DNA of 64,000 nucleotides, taken from contig CAIWKE010000032.1 of NCBI GenBank assembly GCA_903913215.1, positions 1 through 64,000 on the forward strand. The letters are read 5' to 3'. Under the pieces are notes generated by a model. It saw only the letters and a program-made list of their open reading frames with translations. It made no database searches and was not told the DNA's origin. The DNA is from an uncultured Holophagaceae bacterium (lineage in GTDB: Bacteria > Acidobacteriota > Holophagae > Holophagales > Holophagaceae). Of this stretch, positions 1,091 to 29,728 are shown one piece after another. Made by a program: the position numbers and the translations under genes. The stretch's first letter is position 1. Every line of letters starts with the position of its first letter.

Positions 1091-3223
1091 TCAACGCCGC
1101 AGGCGCAGCGCGTTCAACACCACAGTCAAGGAACTGAGGCCCATGGCCAGTCCCGCGAGCATGGGGCCTCCGAAACGCTCCAGCTGGCCCGTGGCTGCCA
1201 GTGGTACCAGCAGCAGGTTGTATCCGAAGGCCCAGGCGAGGTTCTGGCGGATCACACGGTGGGTGCGCCGGGCCAATTGGTGGGCCGCGAGAATCGGCTC
1301 CAGCCCTGCGCGGAGCAGGACCAGGGGCGCTGCAGCCATGGCCGCACCAGTACCCTGTTCGCCCGCTCCCGAACCCATGGCGATGCCACAGTCCGCCTGG
1401 GCCAGCCCAGGCGCGTCGTTCACACCATCCCCCACAAAGGCCACCACAGCGCCAGCCTGTTGCAGGGCGCGGATCTGGCCCAGCTTGCCCTCGGGCCTCA
1501 CACCCGCCAGCACCTCGGTAATGCCAACCCGCGCTGCCATGGCCCGTGCCGGGGTTTCGCGGTCACCCGTGAGGAGATGCAGACGGAGGCCTCGAGAGCG
1601 AAGCTGATTCACCACTTGGGCCGCATCCTCCCGGAGGCGATCTCCAAACACCAGCACCCCCTGCAGGCCCTGTCCATCCGCCAGGCCCACGGCCGTGCCA
1701 TCTGATTGAATAGAAGGGAAGACCACATCCAGAAAGGCCTCACTCCCCAGGCGCCATGCCACGCCATTCAGGCGTCCCGTGATACCCCCACCAGATTGGG
1801 TTCGGAAATCCTCCACAGCCAACAAGTCGCCCGAATGGGCCGCGCGGATACCCCGAGCCAGCGGATGGGCCGAGTCCCGCTCTAGACTTGCCGCCACCAG
1901 CAGCAGCTCCGCCTCGGACAGGGTGCCGCAGGAAACAATGCTCTGCAGACGTGGGCGACCCTCCGTGAGGGTCCCGGTTTTATCGAAGACCAGATCCGTG
2001 GCCTGCCCCAGGGCCTCCAGAGCCGCGGCATCCCGCACCAGCACGCCCTTTCGCGCCGCCGCGCCCAAGCCCACCATGACCGCCACGGGCGTGGCCAGGC
2101 CCAGGGCGCAGGGACAGGCGATGACCAGCAGGGTGACGGCGGGGCGCCAGGCCAGGGCCCAGCCGCCGAGCCAACACCAGCCGGCGAAGGTGGCCAGGGC
2201 CAGCAACAGGATCACAGGCACGAACACGGCACTGATGCGGTCCGCCAGGTCCTGGACAGGGGCTTTGGAACCCTGGGCCTGGCCCACCAGGGCCGCCATG
2301 TGGGCCAACTGGGTATCGGCGCCCACGGCCAGGACTTCCACTTCCACCATGGAGCCGTGCACCACGCTACCCGCCACCAGTGCCTCGCCAGGCCCCTTGG
2401 GTACCGGCATGGGTTCCCCGGTCAGCATGGATTCATCCACCTCAACTTGGCCGGCCAGGATCCGCCCATCCGCAGGAACGGCCTGGCCCGGGAGCACGCG
2501 CACACGGTCCCCGGACTTCAACCGGGCCACGGCCACCTCCATTACAGAGCCATCAGCCTCCAAACGAAGAGCCGTAGGCGGCGCCAGCGAAAGCAGGGCC
2601 TGCAGCGCGTCCGTGGCGCGGGCCTTGGCCCGGGCCTCCAGGTACTTACCGCTCAACAAGAAAGCCACCAGGGCCGCAGCCGTCTCGAAGCTGAGGTGAT
2701 GGGCGCCCCGCTGCCATTCCACCATGGCGAAGGCCCAGGCGCTGCCCGAACCCAGGGCGATGAGGGTGTCCATGGAGGCCTGGCCATGGCGGGCCTGGCG
2801 GCCCGCCCGCTGGAAGAAGCCCAATCCCGCGCCAAACACCACCGGGGTTACCAAGAGGGCCTGCAACCATCCAGGCAGAGGCCCGCCCAGCCCGGGAACC
2901 ATGGTGAGCAGCAGGGGTACCGTGAACCCCAGAGCCAGGAACATGCGCCGCCGCGCGCCCTGCAGAGCCTCGCTTTCACCCCCTCTTGGGGCCTCGGTGG
3001 CCAGGGGCACCAAGCCATAGCCCGCCTCCTCCACCTCGTGCGCCATGACCTCGAAGCTGGCCGAGCCCTCCACGGCCACGGTCGAGGTGGCCAAATTCAC
3101 CGCCGCCGCAGTCACGCCCGGGGTCTTGACCAGGGCCCGCTCCACATGGCGTACGCAGGCGGCACAGGTCATGCCCGTCACCTGAAAGGTCTGGGGGCTC
3201 ACGGGCGGGCCAGGGCTGGTCAA
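1091..3223 (-). CDS. copA: Cu(I)-translocating P1B-type ATPase
   Basis: Inner-membrane pump exporting Cu(I) from the cytoplasm. One N-terminal heavy-metal-associated domain (GMTCAAC, near residue 17) precedes the membrane segments. The CPC motif (IACPCALGLATP), the DKTGTLTEG phosphorylation loop and GDGVNDAPGLA are all present. Membrane segments 7 and 8 carry YN and MxxSS, the Cu(I)-specific signature. Length 710 is normal. The frame opens with TTG at 3223, two bases after the copZ TGA, so translation is probably coupled. A GTG at 3202 is an alternative start. It is the last gene of the merR-copZ-copA unit. Confidence 0.93.
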   Translation of the reverse strand: MTSPGPPVSPQTFQVTGMTCAACVRHVERALVKTPGVTAAAVNLATSTVAVEGSASFEVMAHEVEEAGYGLVPLATEAPRGGESEALQGARRRMFLALGFTVPLLLTMVPGLGGPLPGWLQALLVTPVVFGAGLGFFQRAGRQARHGQASMDTLIALGSGSAWAFAMVEWQRGAHHLSFETAAALVAFLLSGKYLEARAKARATDALQALLSLAPPTALRLEADGSVMEVAVARLKSGDRVRVLPGQAVPADGRILAGQVEVDESMLTGEPMPVPKGPGEALVAGSVVHGSMVEVEVLAVGADTQLAHMAALVGQAQGSKAPVQDLADRISAVFVPVILLLALATFAGWCWLGGWALAWRPAVTLLVIACPCALGLATPVAVMVGLGAAARKGVLVRDAAALEALGQATDLVFDKTGTLTEGRPRLQSIVSCGTLSEAELLLVAASLERDSAHPLARGIRAAHSGDLLAVEDFRTQSGGGITGRLNGVAWRLGSEAFLDVVFPSIQSDGTAVGLADGQGLQGVLVFGDRLREDAAQVVNQLRSRGLRLHLLTGDRETPARAMAARVGITEVLAGVRPEGKLGQIRALQQAGAVVAFVGDGVNDAPGLAQADCGIAMGSGAGEQGTGAAMAAAPLVLLRAGLEPILAAHQLARRTHRVIRQNLAWAFGYNLLLVPLAATGQLERFGGPMLAGLAMGLSSLTVVLNALRLRR

Positions 3224-3225
3224 GC

Positions 3226-3432
3226 TCAGACCAGACCGAGCACTTGGTAGCCAGCCTCCGTAACACTGGCGGTCATGGCCTCCAGAGAGGCCGTACCCTC
3301 TACGATGGCCATTCCCTGGGGCAGGTCCACGGTCACGGAGCTGACACCTTCCACTCCCCGCAAGGCCTTTTCCACATGCTTGGCGCAGCCGCCGCAGGTC
3401 ATGCCCCCGACTTTCATTACCTGGATTGCCAT
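3226..3432 (-). CDS. copZ: Copper chaperone, single HMA domain
   Basis: A 68-residue cytoplasmic metallochaperone, a single ferredoxin-like HMA domain with the metal-binding motif GGMTCGGCAKHVEKAL. It should hand Cu(I) to the neighbouring ATPase. The start at 3432 is chosen because AAGGAG lies just upstream (minus strand) and the family normally begins a few residues before the MTCxxC loop. A longer in-frame start at 3468 would overlap the regulator gene. It lies between the MerR regulator (16-base gap) and copA (two bases). Confidence 0.9.
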   Translation of the reverse strand: MAIQVMKVGGMTCGGCAKHVEKALRGVEGVSSVTVDLPQGMAIVEGTASLEAMTASVTEAGYQVLGLV

Positions 3433-3448
3433 CACTACTCCTTGTTCA

Positions 3449-3931
3449 TCATGCTTCGGTTTCAGCACGGGCGGGCAGGCGCGCCGCCTCGGTCACCAGA
3501 ATTTCCATGAGGTTGCAGCCCAACTCACTGCTCTGGCCATCGGGGGTGCCCAGCGTGACCTTCAGGATGTCCACCAGCAGGCGGATCTCGTTCAGCTTGA
3601 CCTCCAACTGGTGCAGCTTCCCCCCCAGCGCTTCCCGGACGTGGGCGCAGGGAGTGCTGTCCTGGCGCAGGGCCCGCAGCAATTCCTGGACCTCGTCCAG
3701 GGAGAAGCCCGAGGCCTGGGCGGCCCGCAGGACGCGGACCCACTGGATGGCCCGAACCGGGAAGAGGCGGTAGCCCTTGGGCGAGCGGGGCAGGTCGCCG
3801 AAGACCCCAGCGTCCGCGTAGAAGCGCAAGTTCCGGGAGGTTACGCCGGAGCGGGCGGCCAGTTGGCCGATCCTGAGCAATGGAGCATCCACAGTTCCGG
3901 CCATCTTTGGAGCATCCAGAACGGTCGTCAT
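3449..3931 (-). CDS. MerR-family metal-responsive regulator of the copper operon
   Basis: A 160-residue regulator with an N-terminal MerR winged-helix domain (RIGQLAARSGV...LRFYADAGVF), a dimerisation helix and a short metal-binding tail. A strong SD (GGGAGGAAGG) precedes ATG 3931. By alignment from memory with ZntR, C95 matches the helix cysteine typical of divalent-metal sensors, where Cu(I) sensors carry Ser. C139 matches a C-terminal ligand, and the intervening CC pair is absent. The target genes copZ and copA nevertheless look Cu(I)-specific. It probably activates its own promoter (3958-3988) and the downstream genes. The metal is inferred from context, not from the ligands. Confidence 0.85.
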   Translation of the reverse strand: MTTVLDAPKMAGTVDAPLLRIGQLAARSGVTSRNLRFYADAGVFGDLPRSPKGYRLFPVRAIQWVRVLRAAQASGFSLDEVQELLRALRQDSTPCAHVREALGGKLHQLEVKLNEIRLLVDILKVTLGTPDGQSSELGCNLMEILVTEAARLPARAETEA

Positions 3932-3988: not shown

Positions 3989-5892
3989 GGGGAAAGATCA
4001 GAATTCGTACGGGGAGCCCGCCCCCGGTGGATCAACAGGTGCAGCAGGGTCACGGCCGCTGGGGTGATCCCCGGGATCCGACTGGCCTGCCCCAGGGTCT
4101 CCGGGCGATGAACTGTGAGTTTTTCCAGCACTTCCCGCGACATGCCCTGGAGGTGCTCCACCCGCAGGTCCGAAGGGATCCGCACCTGATCCCAGCCCCG
4201 CTGGCCCTCCAGAAGGCGGGCTTCCCGCTCCCGGTAGGGCGCATAGCGCAGGTCAAAGAGCAGCAGGTCCCGCTCCAGGATGGGATCCCAGCCGGAACCC
4301 CCATCGGCCCAGCCCTCCAGCAGGGCCAGGCAGGCGTCTGCTTCTGCCAAGCCCATCTGCTGACGCCGGAAGAGCTCCGACAGGCTCAGGCCCGACTCCA
4401 GGCGGACCCCCGCCTCGGCGGCGATGGGGCCGAAGGGGCTGCTTTGGGTGACCCAGGCCTGGTCGCACTGGGCCTTGTGGCGCTCCCGGCGCCCGGCCCG
4501 AGCCTCCACCTGGGCCAACGCCACGGCATCCAAGGCCCCCACCTCCCGGGCCAGGGCCAGCAACCGCCCATCGGCCAGGTCGCAGGCCAGGCCCAGGCGG
4601 TGCTCGGCCCGGGCCGTGAGCATGCGGTAGGGCTCATCCGTCCCCTTGGTGACGAGATCATCCACCATGACACCCAGGTAGGCTTGGTCCCGCCCAAGCA
4701 CGATGGGCTCCTGCTCCCGCAGCCAACGCACCGCGTTGATGCCCGCCAGGAGGCCTTGCCCGGCAGCCTCCTCGTAGCCGGTGGTGCCGTTGATCTGGCC
4801 CGCGAACCAGACTCCCTCCAGGTCTGTCACCGCCAATCCTCGAGAAAGCTGCAGGGGATCAAAGCTGTCGTACTCGATGGCGTAGCCCGGCCGCAGGATC
4901 TCGGCGGCCTCGAAGCCCGGGAGACTGCGCACCATGCGGAGCTGCACTTCGGGGGGCATGGACGTAGACAAGCCCGCCAGATAAATCTCCTCGGTCTCCA
5001 GGCTCTCGGGTTCCACGAAAATCTGGTGGCGTCCCTTGTCCGGGAACTTCACGAACTTGTCCTCGATGGAAGGGCAATAGCGGGGGCCCACGCCCTCGAT
5101 GTGGCCCCCGTAGAGGCTCGACTTTGGGAGATTTTCCCGCACGATGGCCTCGGTCTCGGCCGTGGTGTGGACGATGTGGCAGGGCACCTGGGGTTGGGGG
5201 ATGCCGGGGCTGAAGAAGCTGAAGGGGCGGGGTGGGTCATCCCCGGGCTGAGGCTGCAGGCGCCCAAAATCGATACTGGCCCGGGCCAGCCGGGGGCTGG
5301 TGCCAGTCTTGAGGCGGCGGTGCCGCAGCCCCAGGCCCCGCAGCTGCTCCGCCAGGTGGGTACTGGCAGGTTCGCCGGCCCGCCCCGCCTCGATGCGCTT
5401 GTCGCCAATGAGGATGCGCCCATTGAGGAAGGTTCCGCTGGTGACGACCACCGCCTCGCAGGGCAGCACCGAGCCATCCAGCAGCTCCACCCCCCGCAGG
5501 CGCTGGGTGCCTGCTTCCCAGAGCAGGCTGGCGGCCATGCCCTGGCGGAGCCGGAGGTTGGGGGTGTGCTCCAGCAGACCCCGGGCGGCGCTGCGATACT
5601 TCACCTTGTCCGCCTGGGCCCGGGGGCCTCGGACCGCCACCCCCCGGCTCTCGTTGAGGATGCGGAAGTGGATGCCCGTAGCGTCGATGAGGCGGCCCAT
5701 GGCACCACCCAGGGCGTCCAACTCCCGCACCATGTGGCCTTTGCCCACGCCGCCGATGCTGGGATTGCAGCTCATCTGCCCGATCTGGTCCAGGTTCATG
5801 GTGAGCAGGGTCGTGGCCAGGCCCATGCGGGCGGCCACGTGCGCCGCCTCGATGCCGGCATGTCCACCACCAATTACCACCAACTGCTTCAC
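3985..5892 (-). CDS. mnmG: tRNA uridine-5-carboxymethylaminomethyl modification enzyme MnmG (GidA)
   Basis: FAD protein that, with MnmE, installs the cmnm5 group on U34 of certain tRNAs. The N-terminal Rossmann FAD motif (VVIGGGHAGIEAA), the CNPSIGG segment, and GRAGEPAS and TGYEEAAGQGL blocks are typical. Length about 635. The frame is open to a TTG at 5904, but GTG 5892 gives the usual N-terminus (MKQLVVIGGG) and is preferred. It is divergent from pssA. The copper-operon promoter overlaps its last codon. Confidence 0.95.
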   Translation of the reverse strand: MKQLVVIGGGHAGIEAAHVAARMGLATTLLTMNLDQIGQMSCNPSIGGVGKGHMVRELDALGGAMGRLIDATGIHFRILNESRGVAVRGPRAQADKVKYRSAARGLLEHTPNLRLRQGMAASLLWEAGTQRLRGVELLDGSVLPCEAVVVTSGTFLNGRILIGDKRIEAGRAGEPASTHLAEQLRGLGLRHRRLKTGTSPRLARASIDFGRLQPQPGDDPPRPFSFFSPGIPQPQVPCHIVHTTAETEAIVRENLPKSSLYGGHIEGVGPRYCPSIEDKFVKFPDKGRHQIFVEPESLETEEIYLAGLSTSMPPEVQLRMVRSLPGFEAAEILRPGYAIEYDSFDPLQLSRGLAVTDLEGVWFAGQINGTTGYEEAAGQGLLAGINAVRWLREQEPIVLGRDQAYLGVMVDDLVTKGTDEPYRMLTARAEHRLGLACDLADGRLLALAREVGALDAVALAQVEARAGRRERHKAQCDQAWVTQSSPFGPIAAEAGVRLESGLSLSELFRRQQMGLAEADACLALLEGWADGGSGWDPILERDLLLFDLRYAPYREREARLLEGQRGWDQVRIPSDLRVEHLQGMSREVLEKLTVHRPETLGQASRIPGITPAAVTLLHLLIHRGRAPRTNSDLSP

Positions 5893-5964
5893 AGGACCCC
5901 CCAAGCCAGGATACCCGCCGTATGAGGGCCCATCCTCCGGGGTCGGATATGAGAAACTATCGAC

Positions 5965-6804
5965 ATGCGACCCCGTTTAAGCCCAGAAGAACGCCGTGAC
6001 CGGCGCAAGCGCGCCATGCGGCGGTCCATGTTCGTGCTGCCCTCCAGCATCACCATGGCCTCGATCCTCTGTGGCTTCTCCAGTGTGGTGATGTCCATCA
6101 ACGCCGCGGGCGCCACTCCCGAGCGTTATTTCATGTGGGGAGCCGGATTACTGGTCCTTGCGGGGGTCTTTGATGGCCTCGACGGGCGGGTGGCCCGGGC
6201 CACCAACACCACCACGGAGTTCGGCGTACAGCTGGACAGCCTGGCGGATGTGATCAGCTTCGGCATGGCCCCCGCCATCCTGGCCTACCGCTACGGGTTC
6301 TTCCAACTGGGCATCCAGGACTCGCACCTGCGGGCCGCCGGCTGGGCCGCCTGCTTCGTGTACACGGCCTGCGGCGCCCTGCGCCTGGCCCGCTTCAACA
6401 TCCAAGTGGGAGCTACGGACTGCCGCTACTTCGTGGGCCTGCCCATTCCTGCTGGAGCCGCCTGTGTGGCCTCGGTCATCATCTGGCACCCAGCTCCGCC
6501 CTCCAGCATTTTCCAGGCCTATGCCATGGCCACGGGTCTCTTCCTGGTGGGCATGCTGATGGTGTCCACCCTGCGCTTCCCCAGCTTCAAGAAGCGCTCC
6601 ACCAACCCCCGGGCGGCGATGATCACCAGCCTCAGCATCGTCCTGGTCTTCGCCCTGATGATCCTCTTCCAACAGCGTTTCTTCATCGGCTTCTTCGCCG
6701 TCTACCTCACCGCTTCCCTGGCCCTCAACCTGGCATGGTTGAGCGGATGGACTAAAATCCAGCCGCCCCAGGATGGGGCGGAGGATCCCGAAACCATCAA
6801 TTAG
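5965..6804 (+). CDS. pssA: CDP-diacylglycerol--serine O-phosphatidyltransferase
   Basis: Integral membrane enzyme making phosphatidylserine, the precursor of phosphatidylethanolamine. It carries the CDP-alcohol phosphatidyltransferase motif DGLDGRVAR-N8-G-N3-D-N3-D (about residues 69-95) and several hydrophobic segments. The basic N-terminus (RRDRRKRAMRRS) and 279-residue length fit the PssA type with about eight membrane spans. No strong SD is visible at ATG 5965, and an internal ATG at residue 18 is possible. Confidence 0.88.
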   Translation: MRPRLSPEERRDRRKRAMRRSMFVLPSSITMASILCGFSSVVMSINAAGATPERYFMWGAGLLVLAGVFDGLDGRVARATNTTTEFGVQLDSLADVISFGMAPAILAYRYGFFQLGIQDSHLRAAGWAACFVYTACGALRLARFNIQVGATDCRYFVGLPIPAGAACVASVIIWHPAPPSSIFQAYAMATGLFLVGMLMVSTLRFPSFKKRSTNPRAAMITSLSIVLVFALMILFQQRFFIGFFAVYLTASLALNLAWLSGWTKIQPPQDGAEDPETIN

Positions 6805-6812
6805 CCCAGAGC

Positions 6813-7313
6813 CTACAAGCTGGTGGCCCCCGCGGGGACGCCGATGCCCACAACGGCCGCCACCTTGGCGTTGCTCAGCAGCTTGCCGCCGGTGCCGGGG
6901 CCCATGCCCAAGATTGCGCCCTGCTTGACCCCAGCTTCCGTGGTGACAGCGGTGGGAACCTTCACGGCAGCCATGCGCTCAATGAGGAACTTGGCGGCGG
7001 AGGAACCATCCCCTACGACGTGGTCGCCGGCGATGAGAATCACGGCATCGGGCTTACGGCCCGTGAGGGCCCCGATGGCCTTGCCCATGTCCTGGGGGCC
7101 CTTCACATCCACCACCATGAGCTTAAAGCCGCCCGCGGCACCGGTGAGGGAGGTCAGGGCGGCCTTGCTGCCATTGGCATCACAGACCACGGCCAGGGTG
7201 TTCACCTGGGGCCAGGCCTTCTTGATGGCCGCCATCATGGCGTCATAGTCCCCTGCACTGAGAGCACTGACACCCAAGACCAAGGATAAAATTACCGAGC
7301 GCTTCAAAGCCAT
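6813..7313 (-). CDS. Secreted protein of unknown function, alpha/beta substrate-binding-like
   Basis: About 166 residues with a Sec signal peptide (basic start, hydrophobic core, cut near ALSAGDYD). The rest alternates beta strands and helices rich in Gly/Ala (TLAVVCDANGSKAAL, VILIAGDHVVGDG), giving a Rossmann-like look but no recognisable catalytic motif. ATG 7313 is preferred to 7337 because a GGAGG sits just upstream. It is convergent with pssA and lies downstream of the nucleoside transporter on the same strand. Function unknown. Confidence 0.6.
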   Translation of the reverse strand: MALKRSVILSLVLGVSALSAGDYDAMMAAIKKAWPQVNTLAVVCDANGSKAALTSLTGAAGGFKLMVVDVKGPQDMGKAIGALTGRKPDAVILIAGDHVVGDGSSAAKFLIERMAAVKVPTAVTTEAGVKQGAILGMGPGTGGKLLSNAKVAAVVGIGVPAGATSL

Positions 7314-7391
7314 GAACGTCCTCCGACCTCCCTTCATCGGCAGAAGAGCCTCAAGGCTAGAGCTTCGGATGTTTTAGTCTGTTTTTTCTGA

Positions 7392-8765
7392 CTACGTAAG
7401 AATACCTGCAATGCATGCACTCAAGAAATTGGCCAGGGTCCCTGCCAGCATGGCCCGGAAACCCAGACGGGCCAGGTCGCCCCGCCGCTCGGGCACCAGG
7501 GCCCCGATACCCCCCACCTGGATGGCGATGCTACTGAAATTGGCGAAACCGCAGAGCGCGAAGGTAGAAATGAGCTTGGCTTTGGCCGAGAGGTTCGTCA
7601 TGGCCCCTAGGTCCAGGAAGGCCACGAACTCATTGACCACCATGCGCTTGCCCAGGAGCCCACCCACCTGGCCCGCCTCGACCCAGGGCACACCCATGAG
7701 GAAGGCCGGGACCTTAAAGGTCCAGCCCAGCACCAGTTCCAGGCTGAAGCCCGGGTGGATGGCCTTCATGAGGCCATTGATGAGGTAGATGAGCGCGATG
7801 AAGGCGATGAGCATGACCGCCACGTTGAAGGCCAGTTGGCCCCCCTCGAAGGCGCCCCGGGCTGCGGCATCCAGCACGTTGGCGTCGTGGTTGGGAATGT
7901 CCACCTTGATCTCGCCGGCGGTCTCGGGGACCTCGGTCTCGGGCTCCAACATCTTGGCCATCATCACGGCGCCTGGAGCCGTCATGATCACGGCCGTGAG
8001 AAGGTGCACGATGTCCACGTGGGCCACCTGCACGTAGGCCACCATGATGCTGCCGGACACATGGGCCATGCCTGCGGTCATGATCAGCATCAGCTCACTG
8101 CGGGTCATGCGGGCCAGGAAGGGGCGGATGGTGAGGGGGGCCTCGGTCTGGCCCATGAGGATGCTGGCGGCCACGCTCACACTTTCGGCCCCGGAGACCT
8201 TCAGGAAGCGGCCCATGGCCCGGGCGGCGGCGCTCACCACCCATTGCATGACGCCGATGTAGTAGAGCACCGCGAAAATCGAGGCCACGAAGATGATGGT
8301 GGGCAGCACGGCAAACGCGAAGACCATGCCCACGCTGCTGCCGGGCCCATCCGAGAGGTGGCCGAATACGAAGCTGGCCCCCTCGTGGGCGTAGGCCATG
8401 AGGTGCTCGACCACGATGCGCATCTTGTCGAAGGTGGAGCCCACCAGGTCGCCCCGCAGCAGGCCCAGGACGATGACTGCAAAGAGGCCCCAATTCAGCG
8501 GCTTATTCTCGTAGGAAGCAAAGCGCCGAAGCAACATGGGCGTGAACATCAGCACCAGGACGACCCAGCCAACGCCCTTGGGGAAGGGCAGGAAGGACAG
8601 CAGGCCCGCAAGCCAGGTTCCCTTCAGCACCACCATGGCGAAGATCCACTGCAGGCCCAGGCCCCAGGCGATGGTCTTCCAGTGGATGGCGCTCCGCTTG
8701 TGGGACAACGCGTACGCAAGGGCCATGAAGGCCAGGATTCCGGCCAGGCCGATATACCGTTCCAT
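7392..8765 (-). CDS. Concentrative nucleoside transporter, NupC/CNT family
   Basis: A 457-residue inner-membrane cation-coupled nucleoside importer. About ten hydrophobic segments are visible. Family hallmarks include GQTEAPLTIRPFL and the late segment LCGFANFSSIAIQVGG, followed by GALVPERRGDLA. TAGGAG precedes the ATG at a good distance. The roadblock gene ends nine bases upstream on the same strand, so they may be co-transcribed, though no functional tie is obvious. Confidence 0.9.
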   Translation of the reverse strand: MERYIGLAGILAFMALAYALSHKRSAIHWKTIAWGLGLQWIFAMVVLKGTWLAGLLSFLPFPKGVGWVVLVLMFTPMLLRRFASYENKPLNWGLFAVIVLGLLRGDLVGSTFDKMRIVVEHLMAYAHEGASFVFGHLSDGPGSSVGMVFAFAVLPTIIFVASIFAVLYYIGVMQWVVSAAARAMGRFLKVSGAESVSVAASILMGQTEAPLTIRPFLARMTRSELMLIMTAGMAHVSGSIMVAYVQVAHVDIVHLLTAVIMTAPGAVMMAKMLEPETEVPETAGEIKVDIPNHDANVLDAAARGAFEGGQLAFNVAVMLIAFIALIYLINGLMKAIHPGFSLELVLGWTFKVPAFLMGVPWVEAGQVGGLLGKRMVVNEFVAFLDLGAMTNLSAKAKLISTFALCGFANFSSIAIQVGGIGALVPERRGDLARLGFRAMLAGTLANFLSACIAGILT

Positions 8766-24613: not shown

Positions 24614-25801
24614 ATGCTTTTCCTCATCGCCCTCGCCCTCATCCTCCTGGTTCAGTGGCTGCACCTGCGGCTTCTATGTCTGGAGTTGCCGGACCGGTTC
24701 CACCGGCCCCTGCCTTGGCTCCTGTTCTTCTTCCACCTGCCCCTGATCCTGTTCGCGGGCCTTCGGACGCTGGGTCTGGGCGGCCACAGTGCTCTGCCCC
24801 TGCTCCAATTCCTGTCCCGGATCGGCTTCTACTTCCAGGCCTTCACGGTCATGCACCTGATCATCGCCATGCTGGGGGAATGGGGTTGGCGAATCTTCCG
24901 CAAGCCTGCGGCAGAGGTGGACTCCCTGGAGGAGGCCCCAGTAGACCCCAGCCGCCGGGCGTTCCTCCGGACATCCGCCGTGGCCAGCACGGGGGCCGCC
25001 ATGGCCTTTGGTGTTGTAGGCGCCCAGGAGGCCTTCAGCGATCCAGAGATCACTCGGCTGGAGCTGACCTTCCCAGACCTGCCCCCGGGCCTGGATGGGC
25101 TGCGCCTGGCCCAGCTCAGCGACCTGCACGCGGGTCCCCTGGTTGGCGCCAAGACCTTGCGACGCTGGCGGGAGCTCACAGAGCGCGAACGGCCTGAGCT
25201 CCTGCTCTTCACAGGCGACCTGGTGGACAGCCGCCCCGAGGAACTGGAGCCACTGTTAATCGCCTTCCAAGGCTTCCACCCGCCCCTGGGCCGCTTCGCG
25301 GTGCTGGGAAATCACGACTACTTCGACGATCCTGGGCCCATCTGGCGCGACTTAGAGGGCGCCGGAATCCGCTGCCTGGAGAACGCCGCGGCCCTGATCC
25401 AGCGTGGGGGCTCCACCCTGGCCCTGCTGGGGCTTCAGGACCCCATGGCCCGCAACGGCCGCTTCGCCCGCCTGGTCTACGGGCCAGGCCCCCGCCCTGC
25501 CGAGGCCACCCGAGATCTGCCCAGCGACGCCTTCCGACTCTGCATGAACCACCGCCCCAACGAGTGGGAAGAAGCCCTGGCTGCGGGGGCGCGCCTCACC
25601 TTGTCGGGCCATACCCACGGCGGTCAGATCAACCCCATTCCAGGCTTCAGTAGCGCCCGCCTGATCGGTCCCCGTATCCAGGGCCTCTACCGGGATGGTC
25701 CCGATCTCCTTTACGTCAGCCGGGGCCTGGGCGTGGTCGGCCTGCCCATCCGCATTGCCGCCCCCCCGGAGATCGTCATCATCACGCTGAGGCGCACCTA
25801 G
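24614..25801 (+). CDS. Membrane-anchored metallophosphoesterase (YkuE/YaeI type)
   Basis: 395 residues. Several hydrophobic spans occupy residues 1-90. A twin-arginine-like SRRAFLRT stretch and hydrophobic segment follow at about 116-140, then the calcineurin-like domain with all metal motifs: SDLHAG, GDLVD, GNHDY, MNHRP and SGHTHGGQ. Relatives cleave phosphate from lipid headgroups such as UDP-diacylglucosamine, or act on unknown envelope substrates. The catalytic part probably lies outside the membrane. It shares the palindromic control region with the divergent apbE operon. Confidence 0.82.
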   Translation: MLFLIALALILLVQWLHLRLLCLELPDRFHRPLPWLLFFFHLPLILFAGLRTLGLGGHSALPLLQFLSRIGFYFQAFTVMHLIIAMLGEWGWRIFRKPAAEVDSLEEAPVDPSRRAFLRTSAVASTGAAMAFGVVGAQEAFSDPEITRLELTFPDLPPGLDGLRLAQLSDLHAGPLVGAKTLRRWRELTERERPELLLFTGDLVDSRPEELEPLLIAFQGFHPPLGRFAVLGNHDYFDDPGPIWRDLEGAGIRCLENAAALIQRGGSTLALLGLQDPMARNGRFARLVYGPGPRPAEATRDLPSDAFRLCMNHRPNEWEEALAAGARLTLSGHTHGGQINPIPGFSSARLIGPRIQGLYRDGPDLLYVSRGLGVVGLPIRIAAPPEIVIITLRRT

Positions 25802-26043
25802 TCGGACTGCTTCTGCTGCATCCTAGCCAAAGCACGCAACGCGGCATCTGGGACCGGTTCGGCCGGACCTAGCAGTTGCCGGGCCAAGAGCGGCAGGGCC
25901 CGCAGGCCGCGCAAAACCCCAGCACAGACTCGACAGAGCCGCAGGTGAAGCCAGATGCCCAGGCGTCGCCGCAAGGGCAAGGTCCCCTCCAGGTATTCCG
26001 TGAGTTCCATCTGCACGTCATGGCAGGAGGGCATGAGCCTCAT
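25798..26043 (-). CDS. Zinc-finger (zf-HC2) anti-sigma factor
   Basis: 81 residues carrying the cysteine/histidine zinc knuckle (SCHDVQMELTEYLEG, then WLHLRLCRVC), typical of anti-sigma factors that hold an ECF sigma. There is a basic linker and no clear membrane span, so it may be cytoplasmic. ATG 26043 overlaps the sigma stop (ATGA), the usual sigma/anti-sigma coupling. Last gene of the bufferin operon. The convergent phosphoesterase gene overlaps its end. Confidence 0.8.
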   Translation of the reverse strand: MRLMPSCHDVQMELTEYLEGTLPLRRRLGIWLHLRLCRVCAGVLRGLRALPLLARQLLGPAEPVPDAALRALARMQQKQSD

Positions 26044-26657
26044 GGACGGCCTCCCAGGATGTAGGTGCGGAGACGTGCCTGAAGCTGCACCCGGGCTCGG
26101 TGGAGCCGCTGCCGCACGGTCCCCGCCGGAACCAGCAGGTGCTCGGCGATCTCCTCGGTCTCCCAATCTTCCATATCCTTCAGCACGAAAACGATCCGAT
26201 GCGAATCGGGCAGCTCATCCAACGCCCGCAGGAGAACGGCGCGCATTTCCTGCTGCTCCACCAAGAGGTGGGCCTGGGCCTCCACCTGCCACTCAGTCCC
26301 ATGCTCTGACTCCTGGTGGTGACCGCGATCATCAAAGGGCCCCAGGGGCAGGGGATCCGGGCGCTCCATATCTCGAATCCGCACCCGGCTGCGGCGCACC
26401 ATGAGGGCCGCGTTCAGGCAGATCCGGTAGCCCCAGCTGCTGAACCTGCTGCGTCCCTCGAAGCGGGGCAGGTCCCTGTGGATGCTGATCAGGGCGTCCT
26501 GGAGGGCATCCTCTGCATCAGCCTCATTGCCAAGAATGCGGAGGACGCCGTTGTAGAAGAGGCCCAGGTGGGGTTGCACCAGGGCCCCGAAGGCATCCGA
26601 GTCACCGGTGGTGGATCGTTGGATCAGATCCTGTTCGCTGGGAGAGGCTGCCGTCAT
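26040..26657 (-). CDS. ECF-family RNA polymerase sigma factor
   Basis: 205 residues with sigma region 2 (HLGLFYNGVLRILGNEADAE, FSSWGYRICLNAAL) and region 4 (ALDELPDSHRIVFVLKDME, TEEIAEHLLVPAGTVRQRLH). In other bacteria, bufferin-type operons are often run by an ECF sigma with a partner anti-sigma responding to copper or sulfide. Its position right after yceI, on the same strand, suggests autoregulation. No SD precedes the ATG; instead a perfect hairpin (26658-26681) abuts it. Confidence 0.9.
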   Translation of the reverse strand: MTAASPSEQDLIQRSTTGDSDAFGALVQPHLGLFYNGVLRILGNEADAEDALQDALISIHRDLPRFEGRSRFSSWGYRICLNAALMVRRSRVRIRDMERPDPLPLGPFDDRGHHQESEHGTEWQVEAQAHLLVEQQEMRAVLLRALDELPDSHRIVFVLKDMEDWETEEIAEHLLVPAGTVRQRLHRARVQLQARLRTYILGGRP

Positions 26658-26681
26658 GTCGCAGCCAGTGTCTGCTGCGAC
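26658..26681 (-). promoter_or_regulatory. Perfect 8-bp hairpin abutting the sigma-factor start codon
   Basis: GTCGCAGC-N8-GCTGCGAC, with the last base directly before ATG 26657 on the minus strand. No U-run follows, so it is not a standard terminator. It occupies the place of the ribosome-binding site and may limit sigma translation relative to the upstream operon genes. Confidence 0.45.
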
Positions 26682-26698
26682 GAAGCTGGCGGCAAGCC

Positions 26699-27277
26699 CT
26701 ACTTCCTGGGCGACTCGAAGAAGCCCACAAGGAGCAGGTCCAGTTCCACCTGTCGCTTGAGACTGATCTTGGCGGCCACGTTTTCTGCACCCACCCCGAA
26801 ATCCAGGCGGTCCAGGGGCAGGGTCGTGCGGTAGGACCAGGTTTTCACACCGGCACCGTTGAAACCCTCTGCCGCCAAGAAGGGCAGTTCCAGATCGCGA
26901 CTGACCCCATGCAGGCTGAGACTACCCTTAACTATCACCCGATCCCCCTCGCGGCGGACCTCCTTTGATACGAAGGTGATCTTGGGGTACTTGGCCACGC
27001 CGAAGAAATCCGCGGAGCGCAGGTGGGTATCCCGGGAGCTGTTATCGGTGCTGAGGGAACTGGCATCGATCTCCAGGCGCACCGATGCCCCGGTGGGGGC
27101 GGCGGGGTCACCCTGGATTTCGACCTTGTACTTCGTGAAGCGGCCTGGCACATCGAAGAGCAAGGTGGAGGCCTTGAAGCCCAGCACCGTGTGAGTCTCA
27201 TCGGGGCGGAAGGCCCGGCTCTGGGCACTAAGGGGCAGAACCAGCAGGAGGGCTGGCAGGAGGGTGCGTCGGAACAT
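26699..27277 (-). CDS. YceI-family periplasmic protein
   Basis: 192 residues with a signal peptide (MFRRTLLPALLLVLPLSAQS). The typical YceI opening (DETHTVLGFKASTLLFDVPG) is followed by the lipocalin-like strands SSRDTHLRSADFFGVAKYP and LSLHGVSRDLELPF. YceI proteins bind isoprenoid or similar lipids in a barrel. It starts seven bases after the DUF2063 gene stop, placing it inside the RiPP operon. Its role there is unknown; it could bind a cofactor or lipid linked to peptide maturation or stress. Confidence 0.88.
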   Translation of the reverse strand: MFRRTLLPALLLVLPLSAQSRAFRPDETHTVLGFKASTLLFDVPGRFTKYKVEIQGDPAAPTGASVRLEIDASSLSTDNSSRDTHLRSADFFGVAKYPKITFVSKEVRREGDRVIVKGSLSLHGVSRDLELPFLAAEGFNGAGVKTWSYRTTLPLDRLDFGVGAENVAAKISLKRQVELDLLLVGFFESPRK

Positions 27278-27284
27278 GGGGACC

Positions 27285-28070
27285 TCAGGTCAGGGGGATC
27301 GGGGAGAAGCCGTCGAGAGCGCCCTTCTGGCGTAGGTCTCGAAGCAGAGTGAGGACTGGTTCCAGGTCCGTCAGGCCCAGGGCTGCGGCAGCTTCGGCCA
27401 CAGGGATGGTCCGAGCCTGCACCAGGAGGGAAGCCGTGGCGGAAGTAAGTTCCATCAGGAAGACAACCCCTTCCGCGTCCCGATAGGCCAGAAGTTGGGT
27501 GGGGCGGGCCTCGGGAATGGGATTGGCCTCGCTGGCCCGATGGACCGCATGGGTGTAGGAAACGACCTGGGTGGCGGCATTCCAGGCGAGGAAGGTGTCA
27601 GCGTCCGGCTCCTCCTGGAGGCCACCCGGAAGCTCGGAGTCCGGGTAGCGGGCCACCAGCACCTCGAGAACCTCGGCGTGAGCCAATTCCAGGAGGAATG
27701 GCCACCGGGCTTGGCCCCAGCGGTTCTCCGCCAGCCATCCCAGGAAGGTCGGTGCGATGTCGCGATAGTGGGGACTTCGAACCAGCCGGGCATCCAGGAA
27801 GGCCTGGGTGCAAATCGCCCAATCCTTGGGGCCCAGGAGCGCCATAAGTACCGGGAACATGGTTTCGAGCGGTTCCAGGAGGCTCATGCGGGCCAGCTCG
27901 CGGTAGGTGAGCCAAGCTGGCAGCTGTTGGTCGAAGCTCTGCTGGTCCGCGAGGCTGAGCCCCAGGCGCCGGGACACCCGAGCGGGATCGGCTTCCAGGG
28001 CCGCCTCGTCGGCTTCGAGGATGAAGGCGGCGGCGGCCTGCTGCAGTCGCTGAGTGCGGCCCTCAGGCAT
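27285..28070 (-). CDS. DUF2063 partner protein of the RiPP maturase (BufC/HvfC-like)
   Basis: About 261 residues. The N-terminal half has the DUF2063 helical pattern (QLPAWLTYRELARMSLLEPLE start, MFPVLMALLGPKDWAICTQAFL, SPHYRDIAPTFLGWLAE). The C-terminal half ends in a winged-helix-like segment (AEAAAALGLTDLEPVLTLLR). Such proteins bind the precursor peptide and present it to the MNIO enzyme. ATG 28070 overlaps the DUF692 stop by eight bases, so coupled synthesis of the two partners is likely. Longer upstream starts would run deep into the DUF692 gene and are rejected. Confidence 0.82.
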   Translation of the reverse strand: MPEGRTQRLQQAAAAFILEADEAALEADPARVSRRLGLSLADQQSFDQQLPAWLTYRELARMSLLEPLETMFPVLMALLGPKDWAICTQAFLDARLVRSPHYRDIAPTFLGWLAENRWGQARWPFLLELAHAEVLEVLVARYPDSELPGGLQEEPDADTFLAWNAATQVVSYTHAVHRASEANPIPEARPTQLLAYRDAEGVVFLMELTSATASLLVQARTIPVAEAAAALGLTDLEPVLTLLRDLRQKGALDGFSPIPLT

Positions 28071-28914
28071 GGGGTGCCTCCGCCGGGGCGAAGACCGCAT
28101 CGTAGGCGCGCTGGAGCTGGGCCCGCTCCGCCAGGAGGAGTTCCAGGTCGGGGATGTGGTTATCCCGCTCCAGCAGCACGGGCAAGGGGCGACCCACGCG
28201 GGCCAGGACCCACTGCATGAGGTCGATGACGGGCTCAATGACATCGGCGCCATGGGTATCTACGGTGAGGTCTCCGAAGCGCTTGTGCCCCGCGATGTGC
28301 AGCTGGACCACCCGCTCCAGGGGCATCTGGGCCAGCCATGCTTTGGGCTCGAAGCCAAAGTTGAGGGCGTTTACATAGACGTTGTTCACATCCAGGAGCC
28401 AGCCCGCATCCGCCCCTTCGAGAACCTCGCAGATGAAGTCGGCCTCATCCATGTCCGCATGGCCGAGTTCTGCGTAGTAGGTGATGTTCTCCAGCACCAG
28501 GGGCACCGGCAGCTGGGCCTGCAGCTCCCGGACCCGCCGGATGGTGTGCCGGGCCGAGTCCCGTGTGAAGGGGAGGGGCAGCAGCTCATGCAGGCAGTTC
28601 TCATCCACCCGCGTAAAGCAGAGGTGCTCCGAGTGCCAGGGCGCCTCCACGCGGTGCAGAAAGGTGCCAAGGTCCCGCAGGTAGTCCTGGTCCCAGGCGT
28701 CAAAGCCCCCCACCGAGACCGTGAGCCCGTGGGTGAGCACGGGATCCCGGTCGAGGATGGAGGAGGCCCAGCGGAAATGCCGTCCTCCATCCCCTATGAC
28801 GTTCTCGGGGCAGGTCTCCCAGAAAGGCACGCCGTGATCTTCGCGGCGCGCCACTTCCTCAAGATGAGTTCGGCGGAGGCCCAAGCCCACTCCGGTGAAG
28901 GTCTGCTGCGTCAT
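28063..28914 (-). CDS. DUF692 multinuclear non-heme iron oxidase (MNIO), bufferin/HvfB-like maturase
   Basis: 283-residue TIM-barrel enzyme of the MbnB/TglH/HvfB/BufB family, which uses two or three irons to oxidise Cys residues of a precursor peptide. The conserved ligand segments are visible in order: VGLGLRRTH, HSEHLCF, LENITYY, LLDVNNVYVNALN, VVQLHIAGH, DTHG and LLERDNHIP. It lies directly between the precursor gene (15-base gap) and the DUF2063 partner gene, the standard layout. Expected action: convert Cys side chains of the neighbouring peptide to thiooxazole or oxazolone-thioamide type groups. Confidence 0.92.
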   Translation of the reverse strand: MTQQTFTGVGLGLRRTHLEEVARREDHGVPFWETCPENVIGDGGRHFRWASSILDRDPVLTHGLTVSVGGFDAWDQDYLRDLGTFLHRVEAPWHSEHLCFTRVDENCLHELLPLPFTRDSARHTIRRVRELQAQLPVPLVLENITYYAELGHADMDEADFICEVLEGADAGWLLDVNNVYVNALNFGFEPKAWLAQMPLERVVQLHIAGHKRFGDLTVDTHGADVIEPVIDLMQWVLARVGRPLPVLLERDNHIPDLELLLAERAQLQRAYDAVFAPAEAPHA

Positions 28915-28929
28915 GGCCCGACTCCAACG

Positions 28930-29283
28930 CTACTGCTTGTCCTTGCCGCAGGAAGCTTCCTTCTTGTCCTTGCCGCAGGAGGCGTCCTTCTTATCCTTCC
29001 CGCACTTGGCATCCTTGGCAGTCTTGGTGCCCTTCTTGGCCTTCACGTCCTTGCTGCCACAGCTGCCCTTACCGCAGGAGGCGTCCTTGGCCTTGTCGTC
29101 CTTGGCATGGGCCGGGGCCTTGGCGTCCTCCTTGGCATCCTTGGCGCCGCAGTCGCCAGCCTGGCTGAGGGCTGCCTCGGCCCCGAAGGCCTCCACGTGG
29201 ATCGCGCCGAGGCTGGCCGGCCCGCCGGCCATGAGGGTGCCTGCTGCGAAGAGGGTCGCCGTGCCGATGAGCTTGCTGATCAT
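28930..29283 (-). CDS. Bufferin/HvfA-like copper-binding RiPP precursor
   Basis: 117 residues. A Sec signal peptide (MISKLIGTATLFAAGTLMAG and on) leads a short spacer, then a Lys/Asp/Ala-rich mature region with six Cys (45, 70, 75, 94, 103, 112), each followed by Gly and four in a CGK context. The last three recur every nine residues (CGKDKKDAS, CGKDKKEAS, CGKDK). HvfA-type precursors have KCG motifs that the MNIO oxidises to copper ligands; here the order is SCGK or KCGK. ATG 29283 follows CACGGAG. The frame is open further upstream, but that part has no leader character. Confidence 0.85.
   Translation of the reverse strand: MISKLIGTATLFAAGTLMAGGPASLGAIHVEAFGAEAALSQAGDCGAKDAKEDAKAPAHAKDDKAKDASCGKGSCGSKDVKAKKGTKTAKDAKCGKDKKDASCGKDKKEASCGKDKQ
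28933..29013 (-). repeat. Three 27-bp tandem units coding the bufferin tail
   Basis: Three imperfect 27-base units encode the nine-residue repeat around Cys94, Cys103 and Cys112. Third positions differ between units (for example TTGTCC versus TTATCC on the plus strand), so the copies are not brand new, but the peptide pattern is kept. Confidence 0.7.
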
Positions 29284-29458
29284 GTTGTCTCCGTGCGGCC
29301 AGAGCCGCGCTGGGGAACCGCCTTGGCGGCCCCGTTCAAGAAATGAATGGCTCCCCGTGGGATCCCGGGAGGCCATCTTGTTGTCGTTAACCATGGGGTG
29401 CGGGGGTGCTGGCCTTTGTGACATTTTTTTATATCAATGCCCCCGCCCCTGAATTGCC
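29284..29458 (-). promoter_or_regulatory. Control region upstream of the bufferin operon
   Basis: 175 bases with no gene. On the minus strand it has an AT-rich stretch (ATATAAAAAAATGTCACA, about 29418-29435), a plausible promoter core, followed by a long leader. In the leader, near 29318-29329, is a perfect CCGCC-TT-GGCGG hairpin. I cannot fix the ECF recognition hexamers from one copy. Confidence 0.35.
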
Positions 29459-29728
29459 TCAGCCCTTGATCAGTACCCAGAGCCCCACGCCGATGAAGGC
29501 GCAGCCTGCAGTCCATTTGATGGCGGCCTCGGGAATGTATTTGAAGAGCATGCCGCCCAGGGCCACCCCGATAGCCGTGGCGCAGACCAGGGCCGCGCTG
29601 GCGGCGAGGAACACCGTGAGGATCTGCCCACTGCGCACCGTGGCCGTCATGGCCGCCAACTGTGTCTTGTCACCCACCTCGGCCAGGAAGACCGTGCCGA
29701 AAGTGGTCCAGAAGAGGGATCGATTCAT
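29459..29728 (-). CDS. GDT1/TMEM165 family (UPF0016) small cation exporter
   Basis: 89 residues with about three membrane spans and the family motif EVGDKTQLAAM at residues 17-27. This is the half-size bacterial form with one EGDKT-type repeat, expected to pair as a dimer or with a second copy. Relatives export Mn2+ (MntX/MneA) or Ca2+. The start MNRSLFW at 29728 is chosen where homology begins; the frame runs far upstream into the rnd gene and is not real there. It lies upstream of the bufferin operon on the same strand, 175 bases away. Confidence 0.85.
   Translation of the reverse strand: MNRSLFWTTFGTVFLAEVGDKTQLAAMTATVRSGQILTVFLAASAALVCATAIGVALGGMLFKYIPEAAIKWTAGCAFIGVGLWVLIKG

Follow-up and report, generated by a model that had tools for sequence, protein, structure and literature searches.

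Known metallophore operons and the locus compared with them

Two kinds of described metallophore operon come close to the locus reported here, a run of six genes (precursor peptide, MNIO enzyme, DUF2063 partner, YceI-family lipocalin, extracytoplasmic function (ECF) sigma factor and anti-sigma factor) on contig CAIWKE010000032.1 of an uncultured Holophagaceae bacterium (assembly GCA_903913215.1). We analysed positions 1 to 64,000 of this contig, called the window below, which is contig C32 of a 3.9 Mb genome whose genus, by inference, is Geothrix. The first kind comprises the captophorins of EGKCG type, HvfABC with the DoxX-like HvfX (oxazolin) and fontiphorin (PMC13419390, PMC13097082). These share with the present operon a signal-bearing Cys-repeat precursor, an MNIO and a DUF2063 partner, as well as Cys-Gly sites and the N-terminal Arg pair of the MNIO. 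In contrast to captophorins, the operon has mostly SCG where they have KCG, and Asn for Phe after the catalytic Asp; the HvfB and HvfC cut-offs are unmet; and YceI, no DoxX, and its own sigma with a zinc-finger anti-sigma factor complete the gene set. The second kind comprises the bufferin BufA1/BufA2 clusters, with sigma-F/NrsF in Caulobacter (PMC12452194, PMC3511200); they are ECF-controlled MNIO metallophore operons, as the present one probably is. Caulobacter sigma-F drives DUF2282-DUF692-DUF2063 operons, and its published site GTAACC-N16-CGAA starts like the motif upstream of our operon (PMC3511200). Unlike the bufferins, our precursor matches neither DUF2282 nor BufA2 models, nor any other model of Pfam or NCBIfam. 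The sigma pair is placed within the operon, downstream of YceI, and its anti-sigma factor is a zinc-finger protein of 81 amino acids (aa), whereas NrsF is a six-helix membrane protein.

The peptide kit is of a known kind; the variation lies in a dedicated lipocalin where DoxX is lacking, and in a sigma factor encoded within the operon beside a zinc-type anti-sigma factor that has no sensor domain. We read the locus as a metal-stress operon for a modified peptide of captophorin/oxazolin-bufferin type that sequesters copper, autoregulated by its sigma factor and with a periplasmic lipocalin in the place of DoxX, and give this reading a probability of about two-thirds.

Conservation among related genomes

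The MNIO was searched for in 77 genomes of the order at a threshold of E 1e-20, and genes in the GC-rich locus DNA were called with a codon-usage caller. Matches were obtained in 46 genomes, at 53 places in total; without the contig-end copy L003 and the divergent MNIOs L054 and L055 (our numbers for loci, genomes and contigs begin with L, G and C) these give the 50 MNIO loci counted below. Seventeen loci have both YceI and sigma, 5 have YceI only, 3 sigma only and 25 neither; the contig of L050 stops within the partner gene or shortly beyond it, so that accessory genes there cannot be judged. The gene order proposed in the original prediction is kept in many relatives, and yceI, which it had suggested searching for as a conserved neighbour of MNIO genes, is present at 22 of the 50. 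A deletion series was found at one locus: all six genes; YceI without sigma (L069, L080 and L081); and YceI, sigma and anti-sigma all gone (L065). All six genes are present in Geothrix limicola (L058/L160).

The distribution also supplies points that tell against our reading. YceI is missing at 28 of the 50 loci, and hence is not obligatory, and sigma is missing at 30. In a quick MNIO tree of 49 rows, a single clade (support 89) takes in 15 of the 17 loci with YceI and sigma, which therefore do not count as 17 separate events. YceI is also found on a separate branch of this tree, L039/L043, and in L037; the YceIs of L039, L043 and L037 are 54, 55 and 67% identical to that of the window.

The YceI lipocalin in the place of DoxX

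The operon YceI scores 115.3 bits against the Pfam model (cut-off 23.7, E 4.2e-33), and the other YceI of the genome 178 bits. GTDB genomes were scanned with an alignment of the operon YceI. Among the best 80 loci listed, with flanks short for some, nine have at least 56% identity and all nine adjoin an MNIO and its partner; none of the other 71 (at most 43% identity) has an MNIO in the flank examined. Judged by sequence, the operon YceI is a distinct, dedicated subfamily; what had first been noticed as a possible new component is an unusual and real extra part, conserved in relatives.

DoxX (PF07681, E 0.001) was found beside none of the 50 MNIO loci. It occurs in 61 of the 77 genomes of the order, and the sole one beside an MNIO belongs to a divergent cluster of genome G069 (L278/L054). 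The functions of YceI proteins in general are still debated, and DoxX, the fourth gene of these metallophore operons, is described as uncharacterised (PMC13419390). A dedicated YceI in the place of DoxX, kept or lost at one locus among close relatives, offers a direct genetic test of both roles. We found no literature linking YceI with DUF692. The main text of the main MNIO-cluster survey does not contain the word YceI and gives extremely low proportions for further conserved genes of bufferin clusters (PMC12452194).

Other families were compared through 54 MNIO loci (L097-L150), a subset of the places found, with flanks of ~5 kb, some of them cut by contig ends. A general link between YceI and MNIO across the phylum is ruled out: a profile of the operon subfamily found YceI near MNIO in two of the 54, L126 and L098. 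In L126, from another Acidobacteriota family, the MNIO operon at positions 5651-7671 includes two Cys-rich genes and YceI, with frames that overlap; the YceI start overlaps the end of the second Cys-rich gene, which is a BufA2 (64.1 bits, cut-off 60). In L098 a BufA2 gene is present and YceI is located upstream, behind another open reading frame (ORF). The presence of YceI near MNIO in these two loci of other families suggests that it entered MNIO metallophore clusters more than once. Plasmid searches for MNIO (354 records) and YceI (166 records) had no common record among the 30 matches listed for each; neighbourhoods were not opened, and the result says little.

Alternatively, a metal-stress operon could have captured a general envelope-stress lipocalin and retained it only because the two are regulated together; YceI would then be a passenger that takes no part in the synthesis or use of the peptide. 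Its absence from more than half of the related loci, its loss together with sigma and anti-sigma in the otherwise syntenic L065, the lack of Cys in the mature part of all 22 operon YceIs and the commonness of YceI genes in the phylum (267 of 396 genomes) are what a passenger would predict. Nevertheless, we consider this unlikely, as the separate subfamily is found only beside MNIO among the best 80 loci, the operon YceI is also present in radical SAM variants (L039/L043) and in the sigma-less L069, L080 and L081, and another YceI belongs to the BufA2 operon L126.

In our preferred reading, YceI would be periplasmic; as the peptide clears the metal, the lipocalin would probably curb the oxidation of membrane lipids or quinones that copper drives. 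A structure model has the YceI lipocalin fold (mean predicted local distance difference test score, pLDDT, 70.6, moderate), with Foldseek matches 7bwl, 1y0g and 5ixh, the last among the best. The fold is common to BcnA/LcoA, a YceI lipocalin with cytochrome b561; BcnA acts against lipid peroxyl radicals (PMC9113575). In contrast to BcnA/LcoA, the operon has no cytochrome b561 gene, and the partner genes are those of a metallophore kit. A bolder scheme, which we regard as quite improbable, would make YceI an active member of the metallophore pathway and have a lipocalin-held quinol reduce periplasmic Cu(II) to Cu(I), load or protect the thiooxazole peptide and so do a job that DoxX has in other clusters, with the sensorless zinc-thiol half of the anti-sigma factor reading Cu(I) directly.

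Precursor peptide, modifying enzymes and metal

The MNIO scores 287.9 bits against PF05114 (cut-off 25, E 8.3e-86); the partner scores 40 bits against PF09836, DUF2063 (cut-off 27.2, E 4.9e-10) and 38.6 bits against PF22106, NGO1945_C (cut-off 27, E 1.4e-9). In these two genes the locus fits an MNIO-PME1 RiPP cluster. Of the bufferin/HvfABC kit originally proposed, a bufferin/HvfABC-like MNIO operon stands; membership in either named family does not, the curated NCBIfam cut-offs being missed (HvfB 263.5/360, HvfC 103.5/142, BufB 250.4/310) by proteins whose precursor matches no model. These shortfalls count against the proposed peptide class, and so does one residue of the MNIO. Alignment with 3bww was used to match the MNIO to FonB numbering, by our own reading. 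The Arg pair named as a specificity site (PMC13097082) is present in the window MNIO and in 3bww. Directly after the putative catalytic Asp the window MNIO has Asn and 3bww has Phe, so the product could differ. Kin of the window MNIO have Asn, His, Ser, Thr or Gln at this position.

The window precursor has 6 Cys and 23 Lys, and the repeats after its first Cys are DASCGK, KGSCGS, DAKCGK, DASCGK and EASCGK. In 45 precursors the repeat is mostly [D/E][G/A]SCG: 41 have [DE][GA][STG]CG, three have [DE]GKCG and none EGKCG. Each has 3-12 Cys after residue 25, and 174 of the 253 sites are SCG or GCG. For the enzyme pair FonBC the residue before Cys may be Ala, Arg or Thr; the one after it must be small, and in the repeat tested only Gly and Ala were accepted (PMC13097082). 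FonBC also fully processes a DGKCG variant; Ser before Cys is not among the FonBC variants in the part of the paper drawn on here (PMC13097082). Given the tolerance before Cys and the Gly or Ala accepted after it, SCG is a plausible substrate. The SCG repeat and the MNIO pocket are unlike characterised examples (PMC13097082, PMC13419390).

We propose that the MNIO and its partner oxidise the SCG-repeat cysteines, with 5-thiooxazoles as the most likely products, and that the peptide, exported through its Sec-like signal, binds Cu(I) in the periplasm. Products of DUF2063-dependent MNIOs carry 5-thiooxazole and bind Cu (PMC13097082). Copper is our inference from these characterised relatives and from the promoter-like motif (see below) that the operon has in common with a bufferin-type cluster. 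The same two lines of evidence make it doubtful that the operon responds to chromate, cadmium, gold or oxidants instead and that its peptide binds another soft metal, though dichromate was a stress used in work on comparable sigma-F operons of Caulobacter (PMC3511200) and some bufferin fusions point to mercury (PMC12452194).

The precursor might also be an unmodified metallothionein-like Lys/Cys peptide, or carry a modification other than 5-thiooxazole; the absence of EGKCG from all precursors, the Asn in place of Phe and the varied chemistry of the wider MNIO family (PMC13097082, PMC13419390) lean that way. Known substrates, however, likewise have a signal-like N-terminus, a DUF2063 partner and Cys-Gly sites, and with the processing of DGKCG by FonBC (PMC13097082) these features make such a peptide improbable in our view.

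Some loci carry other versions of the kit. In L039:4237-8089 (Geothrix fermentans, G007:C1; the same as L152) and L153/L043 (G070:C1) a gene for a radical SAM/SPASM protein separates the SCG-type precursor gene from that of the MNIO. The partner and YceI come after the MNIO, in L153 with a thioredoxin-like gene between them; a doubly modified metallophore is possible at these loci. Arg-rich, Lys-poor precursors with VPRCGGRRCA-like repeats were seen in a similar setting in L038, L041 and L048 (G070, G066 and G065) and in L271 (G068:C79) and L272 (G067:C41), the last two at contig ends with no MNIO seen there. In the MNIOs of L038, L041 and L048, Leu replaces the second Arg (Pro in L036), and the promoter-like motif is absent upstream of these three precursors.

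The sigma pair and a promoter-like motif

The claim that the operon has its own ECF sigma/anti-sigma pair was borne out, and the pair is conserved in relatives (sigma at 20 of the 50 loci). The zf-HC2 assignment of the anti-sigma factor held in part: its score is below the cut-off (17.7 vs 22.2 bits; NCBIfam anti-sigma model 34.9 vs 50), but C7, H33, C37 and C40 are invariant in 13 aligned sequences, the window and one paralogue included. The pattern C7...H33-x3-C37-x2-C40 fits H-x3-C-x2-C plus an upstream Cys, and the anti-sigma factor of relative L155 reaches 30.3 bits with zf-HC2, over the cut-off. We take the protein to be of the ZAS (zinc-binding anti-sigma) class.

A paralogous pair in the same genome, presumably of RpoE-ChrR type, has a sigma factor 52% identical to that of the operon and an anti-sigma factor (L151) in which the same zinc-binding half is joined to a ChrR cupin (Cupin_7, 42.7 bits). 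The operon anti-sigma factor, by contrast, retains the zinc-binding half only; no C-terminal cupin and no sensor domain were found in its 81 aa. Twenty-three genomes have an operon-type sigma (at least 57% identity), and 20 of these have a second match at 42-52%. The simplest reading of these sequences would be that an RpoE/ChrR-like pair was duplicated and the sensor half lost. As the sensor half is lacking, the zinc-thiol site of this reduced, ChrR-like anti-sigma factor is itself probably the sensor; Cu(I) or oxidation would displace Zn and free the sigma factor, which would then transcribe its own operon from GTCACA-N15-GCACC.

This ECF-type motif lies in the widest gap at the operon, before the precursor gene; no sigma-70-type promoter was found at the operon. 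The pattern GT[C/A]AC[A/G]-N15-GCA[C/T][C/T] was scored in 45 upstreams, a set outside which L034, L036, L040, L042, L053 and L084 fall, as no precursor start was picked for them. It is present in 38 of the 45 at spacing 15 and in none at every other spacing from 8 to 22, against a mean of 0.1 in base shuffles. It occurs 42 times on the two strands of 1.16 Mb of locus DNA, and 38 of the occurrences are the precursor upstreams. All 20 loci with sigma have it, as do 18 of the 25 others (one of the 18, L003, is cut before the place of sigma); of the seven loci without it, two are a single base away.

Autoregulation through this motif has several points to answer. The pattern was drawn up after inspection of most of the sequences scored, so the fair tests are the loci not used for it; outside the defining set the strict motif was found in L042, L084 and L054/L278, and upstream sequence was too short to judge in L034, L036, L040 and L053. 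If the motif is a promoter, some other ECF factor has to recognise it as well, since 18 of the 25 loci in which no sigma was seen keep it. In the genome of the window GTMACR-N15-GCACC is not enriched (10 matches vs 17 for the reversed control). A link of motif, sigma and metallophore is supported by genome G069, where a sigma/anti-sigma pair without MNIO in its 11 kb is directly preceded by GTCACA-N15-ACACC. This copy differs from the motif at one base, and with only 8 bases from its end to the called start the message would be leaderless. Another contig of G069 (L278, G069:C197, the same as L054) carries the strict motif with an MNIO that scores 359.6 bits to BufB (cut-off 310), a BufA2-like precursor under its cut-off (29.5 bits, cut-off 60), DUF2063 and DoxX. 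G069 is a bin with 8% contamination, and the sigma pair and the bufferin-type cluster therefore need not share one organism.

We see little likelihood that the motif is read by another ECF factor, such as the paralogue with the ChrR-type partner, and that the operon sigma pair serves other genes. The motif at loci without a seen sigma and a paralogue at 42-52% identity in 63 of the 77 genomes would suit this explanation; it sits poorly with the motif at every locus that has sigma, with the near copy before the lone sigma gene of G069 and with the 181 bases before the presumed operon of the paralogue in the window's genome, where the best match has 4 mismatches. The locus offers a defined promoter candidate, a sigma factor and a short anti-sigma factor for copper-peptide control outside Pseudomonadota. 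A genome-wide regulon defined by the motif was also considered and is not supported by the counts against the reversed control.

Hairpins in the 5' leader

Two hairpins precede the precursor gene. Over 44 distinct leaders 89.9% of cells pair, and at most 52.5% when the pairing is slid. Cells with both sides changed number 17 vs 5.9 in shuffles (0/500 as high). On the two measures with the least tendency to false positives the leader does not exceed shuffles, which weakens the case: pairs changed on both sides 5 vs 3.6 (96/500) and pair types 16 vs 14.4 (130/500). The structure is conserved, with partial covariation support.

A model of the leader found two precursor leaders in the genome of the window (E 6e-15 and 2.7e-11), with no further match below 0.03. 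Across the order, its matches at 1e-3 or better number 51. Precursor genes of such clusters follow 46 of them, two (L271 and L272) at contig ends with no MNIO seen, and the other five precede or lie in other genes (E 7e-5 to 6e-4). Training took in all but four of the 46 (G068:C79, G067:C41, G069:C197 and G059), and these four, at E 3e-6 to 2e-4, overlap the five in other genes. No known RNA family matches the leader; a single chance-level match lies elsewhere in the window (E 0.22, under the gathering score). The leader carries no weight for the mechanism proposed above.

Layout and setting of the operon

ORFs, Pfam/NCBIfam scans and gene order agree with the original prediction of an unbroken minus-strand run of six genes (Table 1). 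From precursor to anti-sigma the joints are 15, -8, 7, 41 and -4 (ATGA); all but the 41-base gap between YceI and sigma had been listed before. A GDT1-type transporter gene upstream, on the same strand, ends at 29459, and a convergent metallophosphatase gene downstream overlaps the anti-sigma stop by 4 bases. Exonuclease, GDT1 and metallophosphatase genes are common flanks in many Geothrix genomes. A chance array or misread ORFs are ruled out by synteny, since many relatives keep the order between identical outer neighbours.

Table 1. Positions in the window of the operon genes and of the elements upstream of them
Feature	Positions	Strand	Remarks
ECF-type promoter-like motif GTCACA-N15-GCACC	29397-29422	minus	begins 139 nt upstream of precursor ATG
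Leader hairpin 1	29313-29333	minus	8 pairs, one G-U in window copy
Leader hairpin 2	29295-29308	minus	5 pairs, just before Shine-Dalgarno-like CGGAG (29289-29293)
Precursor peptide gene	28930-29283	minus	ATG at 29283; 117 aa, signal-bearing, Cys/Lys-rich
MNIO enzyme gene (DUF692, MbnB_TglH_ChrH)	28063-28914	minus	Pfam/NCBIfam
DUF2063 / NGO1945_C partner gene (HvfC-like)	27285-28070	minus	ATG at 28070; listed ORF begins further upstream
YceI-family lipocalin gene	26699-27277	minus	signal-like N-terminus, no Cys, dedicated subfamily
ECF sigma gene	26040-26657	minus	Pfam sigma r2 and r4
Zinc-finger-type anti-sigma gene	25798-26043	minus	81 aa; ATG at 26043; listed ORF begins further upstream

A second copy in the same genome consists of the precursor and the first half of the MNIO at a contig end (L003, C28:1-803). 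Judged by eye it resembles the cluster of G048 (L075) most, and an integrase-looking ORF is located at L003:4543-5880. In L068, L070, L071, L077, L079 and L083 a gene for an FKBP-type isomerase follows the partner (Pfam check in L068); these loci belong to a Geothrix clade without YceI and sigma.

Of copA and copZ, both pointed out originally, copA is present (1097-2827, minus strand), and a copZ-like ORF at 3226-3492 (minus strand) was recognised by its GMTCxxC pattern only. Both are located in the window, >22 kb away from the operon. A second copA was seen in the same genome at C28:73353.

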